Below, in pieces: positions 22,683 to 48,959 of a stretch of DNA of 64,000 nucleotides. Positions within the stretch are counted from its first letter, which is position 1. Every line of letters starts with the position of its first letter. The translations under genes and the position numbers were made by a program. Where the stretch lies: assembly GCF_003286915.1 (NCBI RefSeq), contig NZ_QMFY01000001.1, forward strand, positions 62,001 to 126,000. Reading direction: 5' to 3'. This DNA is from Pseudochryseolinea flava. GTDB lineage: Bacteria > Bacteroidota > Bacteroidia > Cytophagales > Cyclobacteriaceae. The notes beneath the pieces were generated by a model that was not told the DNA's origin, ran no database searches, and worked only from the letters and a program-made list of their open reading frames with translations.

Positions 22683-23707
22683 ACAAGATAAACAGCATGA
22701 TCTTGCCCTTGTTGAACCAGGTGAAATATTCGCTTACCAATCCGGGACGTGATCACTCCTCGAGAAGCAATCATCCCTTCTGGCTCATTGTCCGCAAAGA
22801 AGTATCGGATCATATTCGCAGCTGGAGATTTATTATTCTGCTCATCCTCATTGTACTGACATGCATCGGATCGCTTTACACTGCGCTAAAAAATTTGCCT
22901 GACGCTATGGCGGGTGCGCAGGATGATACGTTTCTATTTCTAAAATTATTTACGGTCACCGATGGTTCACTTCCATCGTTTGTTGTGTTCGTGGGTTTCC
23001 TTGGGCCTCTTCTTGGCATCAGCCTGGGATTCGACGCAATCAATTCCGAGCAGAACAACAATACATTGGTACGACTCATGGCCCAACCGATCCATCGCGA
23101 TTACGTGATCAATGCCAAATTCACGGCCGCGCTGACCGTGATCAGCATTATGCTTTTTTCGCTCTGTATTTTAATGACAGGTTTAGGTTTGATTCGAATC
23201 GGAATTCCGCCCAGCGCTGAAGAATTCTGGAGAATAATTTTCTTTGGCTTCATTACAATCTGCTATGTCGCCTTCTGGCTAAATCTTTCTATCCTTTTTT
23301 CGATACGGTTTAAACAGCCCTCTACTTCAGCCTTGTCTGCGATCGCTGTATGGATTTTCTTCAGTGTATTTTATCCCTTGATCGTGAAGGTGATCGCAAA
23401 AGCGATGGAGCCGTCTGCTTTGGCATCCCCTGATCAGATTATTAACTATCAGGGATTCGTTAACAATTTACTGAGATTAATTCCCAGCCAATTATTCAGC
23501 GATGCGACGACAACGCTGATGATGCCTTCCGTAAGAACCCTGGGTCTGTTGAGAATGGAACAGTTAGTGGGTACCGTGCCTGGCTCGCTGCCTCTCGGAC
23601 AGAGCCTGCTTCTGGCGTGGCCGCAACTGACAGGACTCATTGGAACAACGATGCTTTGTTTTGGTTTGTCATACTATTCGTTCATGCGCCGCGAGATCAG
23701 ATCATAA
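22679..23707 (+). CDS. ABC-2 type permease
   Basis: 342 residues, about six membrane segments. First near residues 50-70 (FIILLILIVLTCIGSLY), then a large periplasmic loop, LGPLLGISLGFDAINSEQNNNTLVRLMAQP (typical cytoplasmic coupling region of NosY/NatB-like permeases), and further helices to LSYYSFMRREIRS. Third gene of the NEW3-ATPase-permease operon, translated from an ATGA overlap. Confidence 0.88.
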   Translation: MNKINSMILPLLNQVKYSLTNPGRDHSSRSNHPFWLIVRKEVSDHIRSWRFIILLILIVLTCIGSLYTALKNLPDAMAGAQDDTFLFLKLFTVTDGSLPSFVVFVGFLGPLLGISLGFDAINSEQNNNTLVRLMAQPIHRDYVINAKFTAALTVISIMLFSLCILMTGLGLIRIGIPPSAEEFWRIIFFGFITICYVAFWLNLSILFSIRFKQPSTSALSAIAVWIFFSVFYPLIVKVIAKAMEPSALASPDQIINYQGFVNNLLRLIPSQLFSDATTTLMMPSVRTLGLLRMEQLVGTVPGSLPLGQSLLLAWPQLTGLIGTTMLCFGLSYYSFMRREIRS

Positions 23708-31264: not shown

Positions 31265-31337
31265 TGATCCCGCTGGGATTCGAACCCAGGACCCATACAT
31301 TAAAAGTGTATTGCTCTACCAGCTGAGCTACGGAATC
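31265..31337 (-). tRNA. tRNA-Lys (TTT)
   Basis: 73 nt. Acceptor GATTCCG pairs with CGGGATC (one G-T pair). The D-arm is GCTC-AGCTGGTAGA-GC. Anticodon arm ATACA-CTTTTAA-TGTAT has anticodon TTT. T-arm CTGGG-TTCGAAT-CCCAG. The 3' CCA is not encoded, as usual in the phylum. Its 3' end faces the integrase, and 13 bases of it recur at 3092. Confidence 0.97.
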
Positions 31338-36434: not shown

Positions 36435-36650
36435 AGCAGAAAGCGCAAAGCTTAAATGCAGAAAGGGAAACTGCACCGCATTCTTTGCTAACTGATCCGA
36501 TCGTTAAAATAAAAAGTGATCTGCATCGCTTCGTCGAGAAGGTTTTCAGGTTGATGGTGGTGCGCAGATAAGTCGTGCTGCATTCCTTCTCAAAATAACT
36601 TTCAGCTTTAAGCTTTCTGCTTTCTGCTTTTCAAGAACTAACAGTTGTTC
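36421..36650. repeat. AAAGCAGAAAGC-type repeats and CTAACAGTTGT element
   Basis: The spacer before the aminotransferase gene. 36421-36465 holds AAAGC/GCAGAAAGC words; 36604-36632 holds their complement (GCTTTAAGCTTTCTGC), so a long hairpin is possible. 36635-36650 is GAACTAACAGTTGTTC, shared with the ilvE and leuC leaders. No gene seen in 36435-36730. Confidence 0.6.
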
Positions 36651-38360: not shown

Positions 38361-40820
38361 ATGTTCCGGTACTTTGCTGTTCTTTTCTTCAGAAACCTCC
38401 GCCGTCAGAAGTTATTTTCGACCATCAACATCCTTGGACTTACGGCCGGGATTGTGAGCACGATCATGATCTATCTTTATGTGCAGTTCGAAAAAAGCTA
38501 CGACCGGTTTCACACCCATGCTGACAACATCTATCGTGTAAACCAGACTTTCATCTGGGGCGAGAACGACGACAATCAATTTGCATCACTTGGCCCCGGT
38601 GTGGCCACGGCGCTGAAGATCGAACTTCCGGAAGCGAAAGAAGTAACACGTCTGCACCCTCCCGGAAATTTTCTGGTGAGCAACGCTGAAAACAAAAATG
38701 ACATCCGCACTTTCGATGAAGACAAAATTCTCTGTGCCGATTCAAACTTCTTCAGCGTATTCGCATTTCCCTTGCTAAAAGGAAATGCTAAAACAGCACT
38801 GAAGCATCCGAATACGGTAGTGTTAACGGCTTCCGCAGCGAAAAAATATTTCGACGATAACAATCCCATCGGAAAACTTTTGATCTTCGAAGCAAAGGGT
38901 CAGAAAACTACTGTAGAAGTTACGGGTGTGGTCGCCGATGGACCCGCGAATTCATACATCGAATTCGACATGCTCTTCTCGATGATGAGCTTGCCACGCA
39001 TCCAGTTCTCAAACGATCATTGGCTCTGGACAACTTTCGAAACATTTGTATTACTCGACGAAAAAGCAAACATCGCCAGCATCGAAGAACGCCTGCTGAA
39101 AATGCCGCGCAAATATGCCGAAGCAACCTTGAAGAACGGCATGCACCAAACCTTCGATGAGTATGAACAAAGCGGCAAGAAGTGGGAGCTATTCCTCCAG
39201 CCTTTCACTGCCATCCATTTGTATTCCAATAATGTTTACAACAGGCTTAACGAAGTAGGCAACATCACGACAGTAAATGTGCTCAACGGTGTGGAGATCT
39301 TTATCATCCTTTTGTCATGCATTAACTTCATGAACCTCTCGACGGCGCAATACACCAAGCGCATCAAAGAGTCGAGCATTCGTAAAGTATTGGGCTCCGA
39401 CAAATTTCAGTTGTCGTTACATTTCTTTGCAGAAGCACTGATGTACTGTCTGATCTCTGCACTGATTGCCATGTGCGTGGTGCAGCTTTTACTACCCATC
39501 TTCAACTTCATGAGTGGTGTTCAATTGTCATTTGATGTATTTGAAAATCCGCAGATGCTATTGCTCGTCGCAGTTTTAGTAGTGATCATGAGCTTATTGT
39601 CCGGAAGCTATCCTGCAATATTCCTGAGTAAATTCTCTGCAGTTGAAACGATGAAAGGAAAACTACGCACCGGTAAAGGAGGGCAGAGCATCCGTAATGG
39701 ACTGGTGATTCTTCAGTTTGTGATTTCTATGGTGATGATTGTTTTCACCGTCGTTGTTTTTGATCAGATCAAATTCCTCGGCCAAAAAGATATCGGTTTC
39801 AAACGCGAAAACCTGATGGTGATCAACAACGCAGAATGGGCTACCAACAATGAAAGTTTCGTGAATGAGTTAGCAAACATCCCGGGTGTTGTTGATGTAT
39901 CGTATAACACATCGGTTCCGCCTAACTTGTATGATGGCGATCAGTTCGGTGCCGTGGGAAGTGATAAATACATTCCTATCAATTACACAAAAGCCGATGA
40001 AGACTATGTGCCTACGCTGGGATTGAAAATGTTATACGGTCGTAATTTCTCCAAAGACATGCCTGCGGATTCGAGCCGCGTGATCCTCAATGAAAATGCC
40101 ATCAGTGCCCTAGGATGGGCATTGGATGAAAGTGTTCTCGGGAAGAAGATCGACTACGTGGGAAAACATTTTGAAGTCGTTGGCATCATCAAAGATTTCA
40201 ACTACTGGTCATTGGAAGTTCCGATTCAACCGATGGCGATTTTCCACAGCAAATCTTCATTGTATGCAACACACAAACGCTTTATTGCCATCAGAACAAA
40301 ATCGGCACAGGAAGTAAACCTTCAAGAAATCGTCGCGGCAACACAAACGAAGTGGGAGAAATTTTCAGGAACAAATCCCTTCCGTTACAGCTTCGTAGAC
40401 GACGATTTTGCGGCGGATTATCTTTCGCAAAAAAGATTCGGTGGTGTGCTGAGCATCTTCGCGGGCCTTGCTATTCTGATTGCCAGTTTAGGATTGTTAG
40501 GAATGATCATTTACAACTTGGAACAACGTACCAAAGAGATTGGTATTCGTAAAGTGGTAGGCGCATCAACCATTAACATCTGGGCGCTGATGATCAAAAA
40601 CTATTTATACTTGATGCTCGCTGCTTTCGCGTTGAGTGTTCCATTCTGCGTATGGTTGCTGAACAAATGGCTGTCGAACTTCTATCATCGTATTGATATC
40701 ACCGCGTGGCCGTTCATTGTCGCGATGGGAAGTATCCTGATCACGGCACTAGTGATTACATCATATCATGTTGCCAAAGCAGCACAGATGAATCCGGTGA
40801 ATGTGTTGAAAGACGAGTAA
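38361..40820 (+). CDS. MacB-type FtsX permease
   Basis: 819 residues. N-terminal helix (FFRNLRRQKLFSTINILGLTAGI), MacB periplasmic core (about 40-280), two FtsX domains (near 300-430 with LSTAQYTKRIKESSIRKVLGS; near 690-815 with LEQRTKEIGIRKVVGAS). No ATPase is encoded beside it, as often in Bacteroidota. Mechanotransmission-type ABC export of an unknown molecule. Confidence 0.9.
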   Translation: MFRYFAVLFFRNLRRQKLFSTINILGLTAGIVSTIMIYLYVQFEKSYDRFHTHADNIYRVNQTFIWGENDDNQFASLGPGVATALKIELPEAKEVTRLHPPGNFLVSNAENKNDIRTFDEDKILCADSNFFSVFAFPLLKGNAKTALKHPNTVVLTASAAKKYFDDNNPIGKLLIFEAKGQKTTVEVTGVVADGPANSYIEFDMLFSMMSLPRIQFSNDHWLWTTFETFVLLDEKANIASIEERLLKMPRKYAEATLKNGMHQTFDEYEQSGKKWELFLQPFTAIHLYSNNVYNRLNEVGNITTVNVLNGVEIFIILLSCINFMNLSTAQYTKRIKESSIRKVLGSDKFQLSLHFFAEALMYCLISALIAMCVVQLLLPIFNFMSGVQLSFDVFENPQMLLLVAVLVVIMSLLSGSYPAIFLSKFSAVETMKGKLRTGKGGQSIRNGLVILQFVISMVMIVFTVVVFDQIKFLGQKDIGFKRENLMVINNAEWATNNESFVNELANIPGVVDVSYNTSVPPNLYDGDQFGAVGSDKYIPINYTKADEDYVPTLGLKMLYGRNFSKDMPADSSRVILNENAISALGWALDESVLGKKIDYVGKHFEVVGIIKDFNYWSLEVPIQPMAIFHSKSSLYATHKRFIAIRTKSAQEVNLQEIVAATQTKWEKFSGTNPFRYSFVDDDFAADYLSQKRFGGVLSIFAGLAILIASLGLLGMIIYNLEQRTKEIGIRKVVGASTINIWALMIKNYLYLMLAAFALSVPFCVWLLNKWLSNFYHRIDITAWPFIVAMGSILITALVITSYHVAKAAQMNPVNVLKDE

Positions 40821-40822
40821 TG

Positions 40823-40922
40823 CAGGAGTGTTCAAGTGCGCAAGTGTTCACGTGTTCAAGTGATTTTCATCGGTTTAACCACCACAACCTGAACACTTGA
40901 ACACACGAACACTTGAACACTT
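40823..40922. repeat. GTGTTCAAGTG inverted repeats
   Basis: Several copies of TGTTCAAGTG (40828-40862) face copies of CACTTGAACA (40892-40921). They can fold into a long imperfect hairpin after the permease gene, perhaps stabilising the transcript end. Ordinary poly-T terminator not visible. Confidence 0.6.
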
Positions 40923-41025
40923 TCTCCGTCCTAACATTCGTTTTTAGCGAAATTTCGAAATATTTTCTCCAAATCACTTGAACGGTAAACGATAATTTGT
41001 GACAATTGTATTCGCACAGAATAAA

Positions 41026-41145
41026 ATGATTAACAAATTGAAAATCACCGAACGCTTGTTCAACCTCAACCGGTTGCAGAACGTTACTGTGCTCGTCATT
41101 ATCGTCATTCTACTCGTCAAACCCGCGGGAGCGATAGTGATTTAA
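41026..41145 (+). CDS. ilv leader peptide (attenuator peptide)
   Basis: 39 codons from ATG 41026 to TAA 41143-41145. Residues 22-31 are VLVIIVILLV, ten regulated amino acids in a row, and the last three are IVI; 20 of 39 residues are Ile, Leu or Val. It precedes the ilv-leu operon and is followed 25 nt later by a strong terminator. This is the classic ilv-leader design known from enteric bacteria: charged Ile/Val/Leu tRNA shortage stalls the ribosome here. Confidence 0.85.
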   Translation: MINKLKITERLFNLNRLQNVTVLVIIVILLVKPAGAIVI

Positions 41146-41202
41146 ATTTTAAAAAGAAATGATCATGAACCGCCCCGACAAACTTCGGGGCGGTTTTGTT
41201 TT
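41126..41202 (+). promoter_or_regulatory. ilv attenuator: terminator and candidate antiterminator
   Basis: Terminator CCGCCCCG (41170-41177), 8-nt loop, CGGGGCGG (41186-41193), then TTTTGTTTT. Competing pair: CGGG-A-GCG at 41126-41133, inside the last leader codons, can pair with CGCCCCG (41171-41177) with one bulged A. A ribosome stalled in the Val/Ile run leaves this segment free to form the antiterminator. Confidence 0.75.
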
Positions 41203-41233
41203 ATACAGATCAGAACAAACTAACAGTTGTAAA

Positions 41234-42124
41234 ATGTACTACACGAAAGACACGATCTTGTTTTTGAATGGTAAGTTCATCAAGGCAGTCGACGCGCACA
41301 CTGACCTCTACAGCCAAACGCTGCACTATGGTTTCGGTGCGTTCGAAGGTATCCGCGCTTACCAGACGATGAATGGCGTGAAGATCTTCAAGGCGTACGA
41401 ACACTTCGAACGTCTAAAGAAAAGCTGCGCACTTGTAGGCATTCCTTTCAACTACGAAACTGAAGAGCTTGTACAAATCGCGTATCAACTTCTTGAGAAA
41501 AATGAATTAAGCGACGCATACATTCGCCCGCTTGTGTATTGTGCGCCAAACATGCAGCTTACACAACCAAGCGAAGTGTACTTGATGATGTGTACATGGG
41601 AATGGGAAAAGTATCATGGTGCCGATCGTCAATTGAAAATGTGCATCTCATCTTACCAGCGACCGAATCCAAATTCACTGAAGATGGAAGCCAAAGTAAC
41701 CGGTCACTACGTGAACTCAATTCTCGCGACAAGCGAAGCCAAAGTTCGCGGCTATGATGAAGCCCTCATGCTCGACATGAACAGTAACATCGCAGAAGCT
41801 CCGGGTGCAAATTTCTTCCTCGAAAAAGACGGTGTGCTTCATACGCCTTCTCTCGGACACATCTTACCAGGCATAACACGTCAAACCGTGCTCAACATCT
41901 GCCGCGAGCTTGACATTCCTGTAACAGAAAGACAAATCAAACCTGAAGAATTAGAATCAGCTGATAGCGCTTTCCTCTGCGGAACAGCAGCGGAGATCGT
42001 CGGTATTGAATCCATCGATGCTAAACCTTTTCGTAAACCTTGGTTCGATTCACTTGGCGCTTCTATCCAAGAAGCATACAAGTGCCAAGTTCTCGAAAAG
42101 TCTTTCAGCTACGTCATCATCTAA
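41234..42124 (+). CDS. ilvE: branched-chain amino acid aminotransferase
   Basis: 296 residues from MYYTKDTILFLNGKF (ATG 41234); the frame start at 41159 would lie inside the attenuator. Fold type IV marks: HYGFGAFEGIRAY, Lys in EAKVTGHYVNSILATSEAKVRGYDEALMLD, APGANFFLEKDG. Makes Ile, Val and Leu from their keto acids with glutamate. First gene of the ilv-leu operon; the CTAACAGTTGT element sits immediately before its ATG. Confidence 0.95.
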   Translation: MYYTKDTILFLNGKFIKAVDAHTDLYSQTLHYGFGAFEGIRAYQTMNGVKIFKAYEHFERLKKSCALVGIPFNYETEELVQIAYQLLEKNELSDAYIRPLVYCAPNMQLTQPSEVYLMMCTWEWEKYHGADRQLKMCISSYQRPNPNSLKMEAKVTGHYVNSILATSEAKVRGYDEALMLDMNSNIAEAPGANFFLEKDGVLHTPSLGHILPGITRQTVLNICRELDIPVTERQIKPEELESADSAFLCGTAAEIVGIESIDAKPFRKPWFDSLGASIQEAYKCQVLEKSFSYVII

Positions 42125-42222
42125 CAACCAGATGTTCGGGGACGTGAAGTATCCAAGTGATACTTCACTCCGTCCTCGTTATCAAAATAGATTTTTTAAA
42201 CTACCATCAGAATAACTCAAAC

Positions 42223-43908
42223 GTGAACAAAGAATTAAACAAATACAGCAAGACGCTTACGCAGGATCCTACACTTCCGGCAGCGCAAGCGATGCTTTAC
42301 GGAATAGGTCTGACAGAAGCTGATATGGCAAAAGCGCAAATCGGCATCGCGAGCACAGGCTATGACGGGAACACTTGTAACATGCACCTTAACAAACTCG
42401 CACAAGATGTAAAAACGTCTGTGTGGGGGAATGATCTCGTAGGACTCATCTTCAACACGATCGGCGTGAGCGATGGTATGAGCAACGGGACAGAAGGCAT
42501 GCGTTATTCATTGGTGAGTCGCGAGATTATTGCCGACTCAATCGAAGCTGTATGTGGCGCACAATATTACGACGGTCTCATCGCTGTGGTAGGTTGTGAT
42601 AAAAATATGCCTGGCGCACTCATCGCGATGGGACGTCTCAACCGCCCGTCAATCATGGTGTATGGTGGTTCTATCGCCGGTGGTCACTACAAAGGAAAAG
42701 AACTAAACATCATTTCTTCTTTTGAAGCACTTGGCGAAAAAATCGCCGGTAAACTTTCGCCAGAAGATTTCAAAGGTATCATTCAGAATTCCTGTCCAGG
42801 TGCAGGTGCTTGTGGTGGCATGTATACAGCCAACACCATGTCATCGGCAATCGAAGCGCTTGGTATGTCGTTGCCTTATTCTTCTTCTAACCCAGCGTTG
42901 AGTGCTGAGAAAGTTGCAGAATGTAAAGCAGCTGGCGAAGCGATCAAAAATCTGCTCGCACTCGATCTCAAGCCTCGCGACATCATGACTTTCAAAGCAT
43001 TTGAAAATGCTATTACTGTGGTGATCGCTTTGGGAGGATCAACAAACGCCGTGCTTCACTTAATCGCAATGGCTAAAGCTGCTGGCGTAAAAGTGACGCA
43101 AGAAGACTTCCAACGCATCTCTGATAAAACACCGTTGATTGCCGACCTTAAGCCTAGTGGAAAATATTTGATGGAAGAATTACACCGTCAAGGTGGTGTT
43201 CCTGCCGTAATGAAATATCTCCTTGCAAAAGGATTCCTCCACGGTGACTGCATTACTGTAACAGGTAAAACGATCGCAGAAAACGTGAAAGATGCGAAGA
43301 CGCTCGACTTCACACAACAAGATGTAATTGTTCCGATTGAAAAGCCGATCAAGATTACTGGTCACTTACAAATCATTTACGGAAATCTTGCAGAGAAAGG
43401 ATCTGTCGCGAAGATCACTGGCAAAGAAGGTGAGATGTTCAAAGGTCCGGCACGCGTCTTCAATGGTGAATTCGAAGTAGTACAAGGTGTACAATCAGGC
43501 AGAATCAAAGCTGGTGATGTGGTGGTGATCCGCTACGTTGGACCGAAAGGCGCACCGGGTATGCCTGAGATGTTAAAGCCTACAAGTCTTATCATGGGCG
43601 CTGGTCTTGGTAAGAGCGTAGCGTTGGTAACAGACGGAAGATTCTCCGGAGGCTCTCACGGATTTGTAATTGGTCACATTGCACCTGAAGCTTTCGAGGG
43701 TGGTATGATCGCCCTCGTAGAAGACGATGATCTTATCGAGATTGACATCAGAAATCACACCATCAATTTGATGGTTGATGCACAGACAATAGCGAAGCGC
43801 AAAGCAGCGTGGAAAGCTCCAAAGCTGAAAGCGACGAATGGAATTTTATTGAAGTATGCAAAACAAGTAAAAACTGCCGCCGATGGATGCGTTACTGACG
43901 AAGACTAA
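42223..43908 (+). CDS. ilvD: dihydroxy-acid dehydratase
   Basis: 561 residues from GTG 42223 ([12 protein letters not shown]); no ATG in a suitable place. The three cluster cysteines are in [16 protein letters not shown] and [17 protein letters not shown]. Converts dihydroxy-isovalerate and dihydroxy-methylvalerate to keto acids. Its 3' end overlaps ilvB by 26 bp. Confidence 0.95.
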
Positions 43909-45640
43909 ACCTGCTGATGACAAGAAGGAAGAGCCTAAGAAGATGATTACAGGTTCGGAAGTGTTGCTCAATTCTCTTGTTGCAGAAGGTGTTGACATTA
44001 TTTTTGGATACCCTGGCGGTGCGATCATGCCTGTATATGATGCACTGTATTCTTACGCTGACAGACTCAATCACATTCTTGTTCGTCATGAGCAAGGTGC
44101 GATACATGCAGCACAAGGATTTGCACGTGTATCTGGAAGAACAGGCGTTGTGTTTGCAACGTCTGGGCCAGGCGCCACCAACCTTGTAACGGGTCTTGCC
44201 GATGCATTGATCGACTCTACTCCCTTGGTTTGTATCACAGGACAAGTATTCGCGCACCTCTTAGGAACAGACGCGTTCCAGGAATGTGATGTCATCAATA
44301 CAACAATCCCGGTTACAAAATGGAATGTTCAAGTAGCCGAAGCGAAAGACATCGCCCCTGCTGTCGCCAAAGCATTCTACATCGCCTCTACAGGAAGACA
44401 AGGTCCTGTGTTGATTGATATCACGAAAAATGCACAGAATGAACTGATCGAAATGGTGGAGCACAAAAAATGCTCAGAGATCAGAACGTATAAACCAAAG
44501 CCGGTACTCCAGCCAACACAAATTGAAAAAGCTGCCGAGCTGATCAATTCAGCAAAACGTCCTTACATCCTCGCGGGTCAAGGCATTTTGCTTGGCGACG
44601 CCACACAGGAACTGATTGCGTTCTCTGAAAAAAGTGGAATTCCAGTAGCCAGTACGTTACTTGGTTTGGGCGCGTTCCCAACAAACCATCCAAACTATGT
44701 CGGCTACTTGGGGATGCACGGGAACTATGGCCCAAATGTAAACACCAACGAATGTGATGTATTGATCGCCGTGGGCATGCGTTTCGACGATCGTGTTACG
44801 GGGAATGTGAACAAGTATGCAAAGCAAGCGAAAGTAGTTCATATCGACATCGATAAAGCCGAGATCAACAAGATCATTAAGGCAGATGCTGCGGTTCATG
44901 CCGACGCCAAAGAAGCACTTGTGGCCCTAACCGATAAAGTTAAAGCAGGGGCGTTTACCGAGTGGGTAGCCAGCTTCCACAAGTTGAACAACATCGAGTT
45001 CGAGAAGATTATCAAGCGTGAGCACAACCCATCGGAGATGATCACTATGGGCGAAGTAATCAATCACTTGTCGAATCAATCAAAAGGTGAAGCTGTCGTT
45101 GTTACTGACGTTGGTCAACATCAGATGGTAACATCGCGATACTACAAATACAGAAACCCACGCACGAACGTAACTTCAGGTGGTGCAGGCACAATGGGTT
45201 TTGCATTACCAGCAGCGATGGGTGCTAAACTTGGTGTTCCGCAGAAACAAGTCGTCGCTGTTATCGGCGATGGTGGTTACCAAATGACGGTGCAAGAACT
45301 AGGAACGATCATGCAATACAAAATACCTGTAAAGATTCTTGTGTTGAATAACAACTTCCTTGGCATGGTGCGCCAGTGGCAACAGCTTTTCCATGGAAAG
45401 CGCTATTCATTCACTGAAATGACGAATCCAAATTTTTGCAAGATTGCCGAAGCGTACAGCATTCCATCACGCAAAGTTGAAGACCGCAAAGATCTTCAAG
45501 CTGCGCTGCAAGAAATGCTAGACTCACCAACATCATTCTTCTTGGAAGTTATCGTTGGAAAAGAAGACAACGTATTTCCAATGGTACCAGCGGGTGCAGG
45601 TGTTGCAGAGGTGATGCTCGAACCGCCAGCGGGACTTTAG
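43883..45640 (+). CDS. ilvB: acetolactate synthase large subunit
   Basis: 585 residues. TPP enzyme: [15 protein letters not shown] with the catalytic Glu region [14 protein letters not shown] (near 71), middle FAD-type domain, C-terminal [17 protein letters not shown] binding ThDP-Mg. Condenses pyruvate to acetolactate or acetohydroxybutyrate. Needs IlvN for full activity and feedback control. Confidence 0.96.
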
Positions 45641-45795: not shown

Positions 45796-46089
45796 ATGAA
45801 AGAAGATTTCACACTAGAGATACATTCAGATAACAACTTTTCGGTTTTAAATCGGATCGTTAACATTCTGAACAGAAGAAGGGTACGCATCAAGAAATTG
45901 GTGGCACATGAAAATGAAGATGACTTCAAGAGAGGTATTGCTGTACTGCTTCTTCATACAACAGAAGATATGATGGAAAAAGTAAAGCATCAATTGGAAA
46001 AACTTATTGAAGTCGAACAAGCACTATACTACAAGGGAACTGAATTGTATTGTGAGCTTAGTGTTCGCGCTACCGTCGTAACAGAATAA
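45796..46089 (+). CDS. ilvN: acetolactate synthase small (ACT) subunit
   Basis: 97 residues, essentially one ACT domain (FTLEIHSDNNFSVLNRIVNILNRRRVRI). This is the short IlvN/IlvM-like type, without the C-terminal domain of about 160-residue IlvH proteins. Binds valine and tunes IlvB. Confidence 0.88.
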   Translation: MKEDFTLEIHSDNNFSVLNRIVNILNRRRVRIKKLVAHENEDDFKRGIAVLLLHTTEDMMEKVKHQLEKLIEVEQALYYKGTELYCELSVRATVVTE

Positions 46090-46156: not shown

Positions 46157-47227
46157 ATGGCAAAGATCAATTTCGGAGGTACCATTGAAGAAGTAGTAAC
46201 TCGTGAAGAATTCCCGATGGAGAAAGCCCTCGAGGTTCTTAAAAACGATACCATCGCGATTATCGGATATGGTGTACAAGGTCCTGCTCAGGCTTTGAAC
46301 CTTCGCGATAACGGATTTAAAGTAATCGTAGGTCAACGTAAAGGTTCTAAGACTTGGGATAAAGCTGTAGAACACGGATGGGTTCCTGGCGAAACTTTAT
46401 TTGAAATTGAAGAAGCTGCAAAACGCGGAACAGTAGTTCAATTCTTATTGTCTGATGCAGGTCAGATCGCACTGTGGCCAACATTGAAACCATACCTCAC
46501 AAAAGGTAAAACGTTATATTTCTCTCACGGCTTCGGCATCACGTTCAAAGAACAAACTGGCATCATTCCGCCAGCAGACATAGATGTAGTATTGGCTGCA
46601 CCTAAAGGTTCTGGTACATCTGTTCGCAGATTGTTCCTCCAAGGTAAAGGTATCAACTCCAGCTACGCTGTATTCCAGGATGCAACAGGCAAAGCAAAAA
46701 ATACTGCCATCGCCCTTGGTATCGGTGTAGGTTCAGGATATCTCTTCGAAACAGATTTCAAAAAAGAAGTATACTCTGACCTTAGCGGTGAGCGTGGTAC
46801 TTTGATGGGTGCTATCGCCGGTATCTTCGAAGCACAATATCAGGTACTCCGTGAAAACGGTCACTCACCTTCTGAAGCATTCAATGAAACCGTTGAAGAA
46901 CTTACACAAAGCCTCATGCCACTCGTTGCTGAGAACGGTATGGACTGGATGTATGCTAACTGCTCTACAACAGCACAACGCGGTGCACTCGACTGGAAAA
47001 AGAAATTCAAAGAAGCTACACTTCCGGTGTTCAAAGATCTTTACAAGTCTGTAGCAACAGGTGAGGAAGCAAGACGTACAATTGAAACTTGCTCTAAGCC
47101 TGATTACCGTGAGAAACTTGCAGAAGAGTTGAAAGAACTCCGCGAAAGCGAACTCTGGCAAGCTGGCGCTGCAGTACGCTCTCTCAGACCTGAGAAGCAA
47201 ACTGTTGAAGCGAGCATGATCAACTAA
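46157..47227 (+). CDS. ilvC: ketol-acid reductoisomerase
   Basis: 356 residues. Rossmann motif IIGYGVQGPAQALNLRDNG (34-52), NADPH-selecting QRKGSKTW, knotted C-terminal domain with ERGTLMGAIAGIFEAQY. Mg-dependent isomerisation and reduction of acetolactate. Followed by a terminator, so ilvA may have a separate transcript. Confidence 0.96.
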   Translation: MAKINFGGTIEEVVTREEFPMEKALEVLKNDTIAIIGYGVQGPAQALNLRDNGFKVIVGQRKGSKTWDKAVEHGWVPGETLFEIEEAAKRGTVVQFLLSDAGQIALWPTLKPYLTKGKTLYFSHGFGITFKEQTGIIPPADIDVVLAAPKGSGTSVRRLFLQGKGINSSYAVFQDATGKAKNTAIALGIGVGSGYLFETDFKKEVYSDLSGERGTLMGAIAGIFEAQYQVLRENGHSPSEAFNETVEELTQSLMPLVAENGMDWMYANCSTTAQRGALDWKKKFKEATLPVFKDLYKSVATGEEARRTIETCSKPDYREKLAEELKELRESELWQAGAAVRSLRPEKQTVEASMIN

Positions 47228-47365: not shown

Positions 47366-48619
47366 ATGAGTCAAGTCGGGAAAGAATTTAATATAGATAT
47401 CAATGCGGCGGCCGATGCATTGAAGTCGGTGGTGTTGAAGACTCCATTGCAGTATCATCGGAAGCTTTCTGAAAAATTTAAGGCAGAGATTTATTTGAAG
47501 CGCGAAGATTTACAAGTTGTACGCTCCTACAAACTTCGTGGTGCTTATAATTTGATTAACAGTCTTACGGAAGCGCAACGCAAAGTTGGCGTTGTTTGTG
47601 CAAGCGCTGGAAACCACGCGCAAGGTGTAGCGTTCGCGTGCAAATACCTCGACATCAAAGGCGTGATCTACATGCCGGCAATCACACCGAAACAAAAGAT
47701 CAATCAAGTTAAAATGTTCGGCGGCGAAAACATCGAAATCGTTTTGACTGGCGACACATTCGATGATTGCCAAGCGCATGCTTTAGCGTTCACCAAGCAA
47801 AAACAAATGACATTCATCCCTCCTTTCGATCATCCGAAAGTAATTGAAGGACAAGGAACTGTTGGAAAAGAAATTCTTGATGAGGTGGCGGACCTAAACT
47901 ACATCTTCATTCCAATTGGCGGAGGAGGATTGTGCGCAGGTATCGGCGAATATTTTAAGACCTACGCCCCTACAACAAAAATTATTGGCGTTGAACCTGC
48001 CGGTGCACCTTCCATGAAAGAAGCACTTGCTGCGGGTAAGCCTGTAAAACTTGATAAGATTCAACGCTTTGTCGATGGTGCTTCTGTACAGAAAGTTGGC
48101 GAAGTAACTTTTGAAATTTGTAAAGATGTTCTATCGGATATGCTTCTCGTTCCCGAAGGAAAAGTAAGCTCAACGATTCTTCAGCTGTACAACGAAGATG
48201 CGATTGTTGCCGAACCGGCTGGAGCACTTTCGATTGCGGCACTCGATCAATACGCCGACCAAATTAAAGGTAAGAAAGTTGTCTGCATTGTAAGTGGTGG
48301 AAATAACGACATTGATCGCATGCAAGAGATCAAAGAGCGTTCACTCCTCTTCGAAGGGTTGAAGCACTACTTCATCGTACGTTTCGCGCAACGTCCTGGA
48401 GCATTAAAAGAATTTGTAAATGAAATACTTGGACCGACAGACGATATCGTTCGTTTCGAGTTCATTCAAAAACATAACAAAGAAACAGGGCCGGCGCTGA
48501 TCGGTATTGAAGTAAAATCAAAAGAAGATTTTAACACGCTGATAGCAAGGATGAATAATCACAAATTGAATTTCACATTGGTAAATCAGCAGGAGAATCT
48601 ATTCGAATATCTTGTTTAA
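47366..48619 (+). CDS. ilvA: threonine dehydratase, biosynthetic
   Basis: 417 residues. PLP Lys in KREDLQVVRSYKLRGAYN (49-66); SGGNNDI phosphate loop; C-terminal ACT-like domain from about 335 (YFIVRFAQRPGALKEFVNEIL). Makes 2-oxobutyrate for isoleucine; the C-domain allows allosteric control by Ile. One regulatory domain instead of two, as in the shorter IlvA class. Confidence 0.93.
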   Translation: MSQVGKEFNIDINAAADALKSVVLKTPLQYHRKLSEKFKAEIYLKREDLQVVRSYKLRGAYNLINSLTEAQRKVGVVCASAGNHAQGVAFACKYLDIKGVIYMPAITPKQKINQVKMFGGENIEIVLTGDTFDDCQAHALAFTKQKQMTFIPPFDHPKVIEGQGTVGKEILDEVADLNYIFIPIGGGGLCAGIGEYFKTYAPTTKIIGVEPAGAPSMKEALAAGKPVKLDKIQRFVDGASVQKVGEVTFEICKDVLSDMLLVPEGKVSSTILQLYNEDAIVAEPAGALSIAALDQYADQIKGKKVVCIVSGGNNDIDRMQEIKERSLLFEGLKHYFIVRFAQRPGALKEFVNEILGPTDDIVRFEFIQKHNKETGPALIGIEVKSKEDFNTLIARMNNHKLNFTLVNQQENLFEYLV

Positions 48620-48959
48620 CAAATTCGTTAATGCAAGCATTACACAGAGATACACAAAGATTAGGAGTCACACAGAGAATGCAAACGGCAACGCATCAAC
48701 ACACTATCACTCGTTAGCGATTGCAAAAATTTATTAACAATTCGTTGATGTAGGGCTTAACTTTTGTGATCTTCGTGGTTGAACTCTCTCTGAAAAAGAC
48801 GTCGAATAAAGAAGTCAAAAGTCATCTCATGAGATGATAAAAATATAACGAAAACAAACGTTGCCGTCCCGCCAAAAAGCGGGACGGTTTCATTTTTTAA
48901 GGGTTTGAACAAACTAACAGTTGTTCAATTTTACACAGAAGCAATAACAAAAAAGGACA
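48620..48959 (+). promoter_or_regulatory. 340-bp leuC leader with strong terminator
   Basis: Contains ACACAGAGATACACAAAG-type words, then terminator CCGTCCCGC (48864-48872), loop, GCGGGACGG (48879-48887), TTTCATTTTTT, then GAACAAACTAACAGTTGTTC (48907-48926) 33 bp before the leuC start. Same order as before ilvE (terminator, then CTAACAGTTGT, then ATG). I see no leucine-rich leader peptide. Likely a second control point for the leu genes. Confidence 0.6.

Follow-up and report, generated by a model that had tools for sequence, protein, structure and literature searches.

The branched-chain amino acid attenuators of Escherichia coli, ahead of ilvGMEDA, ilvBN and leu, combine a leader peptide rich in the amino acids that the operon produces with alternative 1:2, 2:3 and 3:4 pairings of the transcript and a terminator placed before the first gene. 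Ribosome-mediated attenuation of this kind requires a ribosome close behind the polymerase. The Bacteroid-trp RNA (RF01692) is an attenuator as well. It was reported as a candidate cis-regulatory RNA in Bacteroidetes (PMC2864571), and in 2010 leader-peptide systems were stated to be known only in Proteobacteria and Actinobacteria, with Firmicutes added (PMC2965389). Upstream of the ilvBNC operon of Corynebacterium lie a small ORF, which is conserved, and an attenuator that can fold into alternative hairpins (PMC10272879, PMC11857589). In Flavobacterium psychrophilum, leader-peptide attenuation candidates were noted before amino-acid operons in 2021 (PMC9723704), in a paper which also remarks on the lack of Shine-Dalgarno sequences in flavobacteria.

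In the present study we have analysed a window of 64,000 nucleotides from Pseudochryseolinea flava, whose genome of 6.5 Mb (G000) encodes an IlvD 83% identical to that of Chryseolinea lacunae and 82% to that of Chryseolinea serpens over the best segment. Judged from its sequence, the region ahead of ilvE is with a probability of about 0.92 a ribosome-mediated transcription attenuator of the operon ilvE-ilvD-ilvB-ilvN-ilvC-ilvA. Its leader comprises the following features.

40985 to 41022, plus strand: block immediately ahead of the leader's start codon, conserved in the alignment.
41026 to 41145, plus strand: leader ORF of 39 amino acids plus stop, read directly and recurrent in relatives.
41089 to 41118, plus strand: ten consecutive Val/Leu/Ile codons, the putative stall region, from direct reading and shuffles.

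The leader starts with ATG at 41026, stops with TAA at 41143-41145 and encodes the peptide MINKLKITERLFNLNRLQNVTVLVIIVILLVKPAGAIVI. An earlier note had described a 39-codon leader with the run VLVIIVILLV, and direct reading bears this out, the ten codons being GTG CTC GTC ATT ATC GTC ATT CTA CTC GTC. When the 413-nt intergenic region was shuffled 20,000 times by dinucleotides, an Ile/Leu/Val run of 10 never arose, the longest run being 8 (reached 8 times), and in all six frames of the window this run is the longest, followed by one of 9 codons on the plus strand at 22832. A chance origin of the ten-codon run is excluded. The conserved block at about 40985-41022 is probably the promoter or transcription start region. 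Further upstream, between a permease-like gene and the leader, inspection by eye showed a long imperfect inverted repeat at 40826-40922 with GTTCAAGTG/CACTTGAAC units, which may belong to a dispersed repeat or else form a terminator.

The leader is followed by a set of segments which can pair in alternative ways.

41095 to 41104, plus strand: strand 1 of the 1:2 (pause or protector) hairpin, within the stall codons, from the fold and from pairing in nine sequences including the window.
41126 to 41141, plus strand: strand 2, the last codons of the leader, with strand 1 or strand 3 as alternative partners, from the fold, pairing and a swap test.
41162 to 41178, plus strand: strand 3, the 3' side of the antiterminator, overlapping the 5' arm of the terminator (41167-41178), from the fold and alignment.
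41167 to 41202, plus strand: intrinsic terminator, hairpin 41167-41196 with a T-rich tract to 41202, from the fold and alignment.

The GC-rich terminator that the earlier note placed ahead of ilvE is indeed present, with a stem of 12 bp and zero mismatches whose outermost pair is G-U, a folding energy of -22.5 kcal/mol (z -6.2 against shuffles) and a following TGTTTT. Leader codons 34-39 are able to pair with its 5' side: CGGG-A-GCG (41126-41133) pairs with 41171-41177, just as had been claimed, and the helix can be extended by 41137-41141/41162-41166, giving -13.0 kcal/mol as drawn. Three pairings compete in this way, namely 1:2 (41095-41104/41132-41141 plus inner pairs), 2:3 and 3:4, the last being the terminator. 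Folding of the single sequence finds neither the antiterminator region (z -1.53) nor the leader (z -1.07) unusually stable. At -13.0 kcal/mol, against -22.5 for the terminator, the antiterminator is the weaker helix and would therefore have to act kinetically.

Strand 1 is placed among the stall codons and strand 2 among the final codons of the leader. By established attenuator models, strand 2 would therefore be hidden under a ribosome that has reached the stop and released by one that has stalled. Provided that the leader is translated, we propose that with ample charged Ile-, Val- and Leu-tRNA the ribosome translates all ten codons, reaches the stop at 41143 and masks strand 2 (41126-41141), allowing the terminator at 41167-41196 to form and transcription to end ahead of ilvE. 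Scarcity of any of the three charged tRNAs would stall the ribosome in 41089-41118 and open the 1:2 hairpin, whereupon strand 2, now free, would capture strand 3 (41162-41177) ahead of the synthesis of strand 4, letting RNA polymerase continue into ilvE. Such a response to the amino acids presupposes coupling between ribosome and polymerase.

The genes that this switch would control, presumably on one transcript, are the following.

41234 to 42124, plus strand: ilvE, branched-chain amino acid transaminase (NCBIfam NF005146, 286 bits against a cut-off of 279).
42223 to 43908, plus strand: ilvD, dihydroxy-acid dehydratase, by family search.
43883 to 45640, plus strand: ilvB, acetolactate synthase large subunit, by family search.
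45796 to 46089, plus strand: ilvN-like ACT protein of 97 amino acids (35.6 bits against a curated cut-off of 119).
46157 to 47227, plus strand: ilvC, ketol-acid reductoisomerase, by family search.
47366 to 48619, plus strand: ilvA, threonine ammonia-lyase, by family search.

The longest listed open frame for ilvE begins at 41159, ahead of the terminator stem, and is unlikely to mark the real start. Downstream of ilvA lie leuC, leuD, leuB and leuA, with leuD and leuB named from sequence and context and the others by family search. The ilvE-ilvD interval holds a hairpin at 42138-42177 (GTGAAGTATC...GATACTTCAC) which, by eye, has no long T tract.

Leader and terminator are kept in nine closely related genomes, the window's included. 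The C-terminus of the leader is K-P-A-G-A with three more residues behind it in eight genomes, the ninth (G030) having K-P-I-G-A, and in one genus member (L003, genome G004) the run is interrupted and reaches just 5/8 Ile/Leu/Val. Over nine sequences the terminator stem is paired in 108/108 cells (100%) with zero two-sided changes. The 2:3 helix is paired in 95.4% of cells, a share matched by 108/500 shuffles, and its covariation score by 85/500; for the 1:2 helix 90% of cells are paired and the covariation score is matched by 8/500, but versions of it that have been slid along still show 64-71% pairing. Covariation of the 2:3 and terminator helices within this close clade is not significant, the helices hardly varying there. 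The earlier note had looked to a conserved leader and a covarying stem in other Cytophagales; leader, terminator and pairing do recur, in genomes of Cytophagales type and far outside them, although not in every relative, whereas the covariation did not reach significance within the clade.

Covariation being uninformative among close relatives, we turned to swapping leader tails and terminators across lineages. Terminator stems vary by lineage (CCGCCCCGA, CGCCATTCC, GCCTTTCTC, CCTTCCA, GTGCCTCA, GCCATCTTG and others) and the leader tails change alongside. Over 59 loci the duplex of a leader tail with its own terminator has a mean of -11.39 kcal/mol, compared with -8.14 (sd 0.30) for swapped pairs, a difference reached by 0/5,000 permutations. 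The same count was obtained for the 46 loci without similar tails (-11.36 versus -8.02 kcal/mol), for the 32 loci of a second, named collection (-10.29 versus -8.27) and for its 26 non-redundant loci (-10.69 versus -8.67). The fit of own pairs is uneven, the weakest in the 59-locus set being -3.2 kcal/mol (L097). This swap test is the main evidence for the predicted antiterminator.

Recurrence across Bacteroidota was assessed with a rule applied to 450 nt upstream of the gene, in which an ORF that opens with ATG, spans 12-60 codons and reaches 6/8 Ile/Leu/Val or more had to be followed by a terminator. It was applied to 46 ilvE places, drawn from 45 genomes within the genus, family or order of the window's genome, and to 84 ilvD places picked across the phylum. 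Leader and terminator together were found at 34/46 ilvE places, for which shuffles give 0.05 and the reverse strand 1, and at 25/84 ilvD places, for which the corresponding figures are 0.05 and 0. The second collection, judged by a similar rule which additionally required a gene after the terminator, gave 32/80 loci and 0/80 on the reverse strand; both collections may have species in common. Its passing loci include Chryseolinea serpens, C. lacunae, Chitinophaga, Sediminibacterium, Chryseobacterium, Flavobacterium and Pedobacter, and a metagenome bin labelled Ignavibacteriae. In that bin (L363) an ilv-type leader (MKNFSLINIILLIIVIIIPGYWE) and a terminator stand ahead of ilvD, so that the switch may extend past Bacteroidota. 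Two further bins, labelled Planktophila (L325) and Thalassovita (L335), hold an ilvD 70% and 69% identical to that of the window and are perhaps mis-binned or mislabelled.

The rule failed at 12/46 ilvE places, 59/84 ilvD places and 48/80 loci of the second set, among the last Lutibacter, Polaribacter, Spirosoma and Hymenobacter. Some of these misses are artefacts of the rule, as in L003 with its interrupted run and in at least three ilvD places where ilvE lies between; true absences of leader or terminator are likely among the rest.

Where both parts are present their spacing is narrow. From the leader stop to the terminator the median distance is 22 nt over 59 loci (quartiles 20-25, extremes 15 and 52), while the rule allowed -25 to +120, and in the second set it is 25 (quartiles 21-27, up to 60 allowed). 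Strand 2 overlaps the final 15 nt of the ORF or the 12 nt that follow in 58/59 loci, a count which is partly built in, since the search for the strand began no earlier than 39 nt ahead of the stop codon's last nucleotide.

These data bear on two other explanations. The hairpin could be a constitutive terminator of the upstream transcript, and the small ORF a chance product or an unrelated hydrophobic micropeptide. Hydrophobic short ORFs do arise by chance: the ORF alone occurs at 39/46 ilvE places against 2.95 in shuffles and 9/46 reverse-strand regions at the 6/8 level, and at 31/84 ilvD places against 5.3 and 10. A constitutive terminator would not account for the co-occurrence of leader and terminator, their narrow spacing and the lineage-specific pairing in dozens of genomes, and the upstream gene of the window ends at 40820, 346 nt ahead of the stem. 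We regard this explanation as very improbable, also in view of the codons of the leader discussed below. Alternatively, the leader could control ilvE through translation, by start unmasking or translational coupling, or through Rho, and not by an intrinsic terminator. Leader genes near structural genes have been proposed to help initiation through reinitiation (PMC4833913); here, however, the leader stop lies 88 nt from the ilvE start, more than the 11-14 bp at which the distance peak in Bacteroidetes is placed in that work, the terminator stem is paired throughout the nine sequences, and in half of the 59 loci (the quartiles) it stands about 20-25 nt past the leader stop. Control by translation or Rho is thus hardly to be expected, and transcription attenuation remains our preferred reading.

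The choice of codons in the leaders was compared with that in the neighbouring genes. In a set of 24 loci, from which 8 close kin had been removed and for which the following gene served as background, GTC makes up 0.41 of leader Val codons versus 0.09 (odds ratio 6.8), and in a second set of 32 loci, with ilvD as background, 0.36 versus 0.12 (odds ratio 4.3). ATT is favoured among leader Ile codons in both (0.76 versus 0.52, odds ratio 2.9; 0.70 versus 0.49, odds ratio 2.5). GTA is depleted in both sets, while among Leu codons CTA is in excess in the first (odds ratio 5.4) and not significantly so in the second (1.7, p 0.3). The bias could come in part from RNA pairing, ATT being the codon found most often next after GTC in leaders; the excess of GTC nevertheless persists, with an odds ratio of 4.7, in the 20 leaders that lack AATG/GATG near strand 2, and is 3.4 in the 12 with it. 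Particular codons are preferred, and not just hydrophobic residues, which speaks against the micropeptide explanation: hydrophobicity alone would not call for particular codons, whereas decoding or RNA pairing would. The bias towards GTC and ATT leads to a testable prediction of the codons most sensitive on starvation.

Leaders of a similar kind are found elsewhere in the same genome. A His5 leader (MNNTINKGFHHHHHVTHMMRGIALH) lies upstream of hisG (L183) and a Trp3 leader (MVKYTTTAWWWQGSKLDRCTALLV) upstream of trpE (L201), and both are likely, from their sequences, to be further attenuators. The two leaders occur in 7/7 genus members, the window's genome included (kin L177-L179, L181, L182, L184 and L204-L209); outside the genus a comparable His leader stands at 1/4 hisG loci and a Trp leader at 1/3 trpE loci. 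Around homoserine dehydrogenase an ORF with at least 5/8 Thr was found in 3/14 loci, none of them leader-like, in a survey which was not a fair test of Thr leaders in that the 1,500 nt examined may stop short of the start of the fused genes. Ahead of leuC no Leu leader was seen by eye in 8 loci, and a terminator-like hairpin was seen by eye in 10/10 aligned sequences. In the window this second GC-rich terminator-like hairpin lies at 48864-48895, before leuC and behind a conserved promoter-like block, and is followed at 48909-48924 by an element ACAAACTAACAGTTGT, the same as at ilvE. A hairpin without a Leu-rich peptide would possibly represent a different kind of leader control.

A short motif, CTAACRNTYGT, recurs around these genes.

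36638 to 36648: operator-like CTAACRNTYGT, 93 nt before an aminotransferase gene.
40931 to 40941, plus strand: operator-like CTAACATTCGT from a motif search, tentative, 95 nt before the leader.
41220 to 41230, plus strand: operator-like CTAACAGTTGT from a motif search, tentative, between the terminator and ilvE.
48914 to 48924: operator-like CTAACRNTYGT, before leuC.

The window holds 4 copies against 0.41 expected, a number that 0/100 shuffles reach. The shared motif ACRAACTAACNNTTGT was also considered as an RNA hairpin whose loop is conserved, but comparable sites ahead of promoters and of a TetR gene make a DNA operator more likely. We tentatively assign an operator role to the motif flanking the putative attenuator and preceding leuC. 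This raises the question of whether a TetR/PaaR-like DNA-binding regulator acting at CTAAC-N3-YGT sites mainly governs the ilv genes, leaving a minor part to the attenuator. Besides the enrichment in the window, the upstream copy at the ilv leader is present, with changes, in 12/12 aligned genomes (by eye, the genomes having been picked for the downstream copy). In the genus members searched the motif precedes a TetR-family gene in 6/6, an acyl-CoA dehydrogenase gene in 6/6 and paaA beside a TetR gene in 3/6, and it resembles the Thermus PaaR consensus CNAACGNNCGTTNG (PMC6651687). The element at leuC is also present in G021 and G023, where leuC and ilvE sit on separate contigs. The TetR protein in the relatives passes no curated NCBIfam cut-off, its best match being of FadR type at 56 bits versus 200. 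Genome-wide, however, the motif is not enriched (19 matches in G000 versus 50 for a reversed control pattern), the downstream copy is confined to the 12 closest (L001-L012) of 30 ilvE upstream regions and absent from the 18 more distant ones, and the copies after terminators carry TTGT and not TCGTT, and may be another element. Such a regulator would also leave the leader, the antiterminator and the codon bias unexplained, and a dominant role for it seems unlikely.

A combined arrangement is somewhat less doubtful, if still speculative. In two layers, an attenuator widespread in Bacteroidota and tuned to GTC and ATT would have on either side an operator for a TetR/PaaR-like regulator that senses acyl-CoA and would also govern leuC, acyl-CoA dehydrogenase and phenylacetate catabolism. 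If true, catabolic state and tRNA charging would be integrated at one leader.

The features that define the trp/his/ilv class at the level of sequence, a leader with product codons, an intrinsic terminator, a mutually exclusive antiterminator and the position of strand 2, are all present at this locus. The judgement of the earlier note that the architecture is textbook for enteric ilv operons is upheld in this respect; for Bacteroidota, where it held the architecture to be less documented, there is a brief flavobacterial precedent (PMC9723704). Beyond the sentence in that paper, none of the papers listed by our searches of the open literature dealt with an ilv attenuator of the leader type in this phylum; an earlier description is possible in the survey that PMC4833913 cites as pmid 20198868. 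At Rfam gathering thresholds only a tRNA at 31265-31337 passes in the window, with no T-box or leader family, and at loose thresholds no fitting leader family appears (Phe_leader scores 16.5 bits versus the 55 required). The recurrence of attenuator parts in Bacteroidota, a group noted as lacking Shine-Dalgarno sequences, would imply that ribosome and polymerase are coupled in these bacteria, and the leader could serve as a natural reporter of such coupling. The lineage-matched pairs of terminator and antiterminator provide many ready-made test cases.

Compared with ilvGMEDA, ilvBN and leu of E. coli, the locus is alike in its leader peptide, alternative pairings and intrinsic terminator before the first gene, and differs in matching no Rfam leader family, in an operon which starts with ilvE and in belonging to another phylum. 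With ilvBNC of Corynebacterium it shares a small ORF and an attenuator before an ilv operon, whereas phylum and first gene are different. The Bacteroid-trp RNA is, like the present leader, a candidate cis-regulatory RNA in Bacteroidetes, but concerns trp by its name and not ilv. The candidates of F. psychrophilum come from the same phylum with the same proposed mechanism, the part of PMC9723704 that concerns them being one sentence in which ilv is unnamed and no comparison across the phylum is made. The kind of switch is therefore known and its phylum has a precedent; as far as literature searches could show, the present locus and its relatives add the breadth of occurrence, the matching of pairing to lineage and the preference for particular codons.
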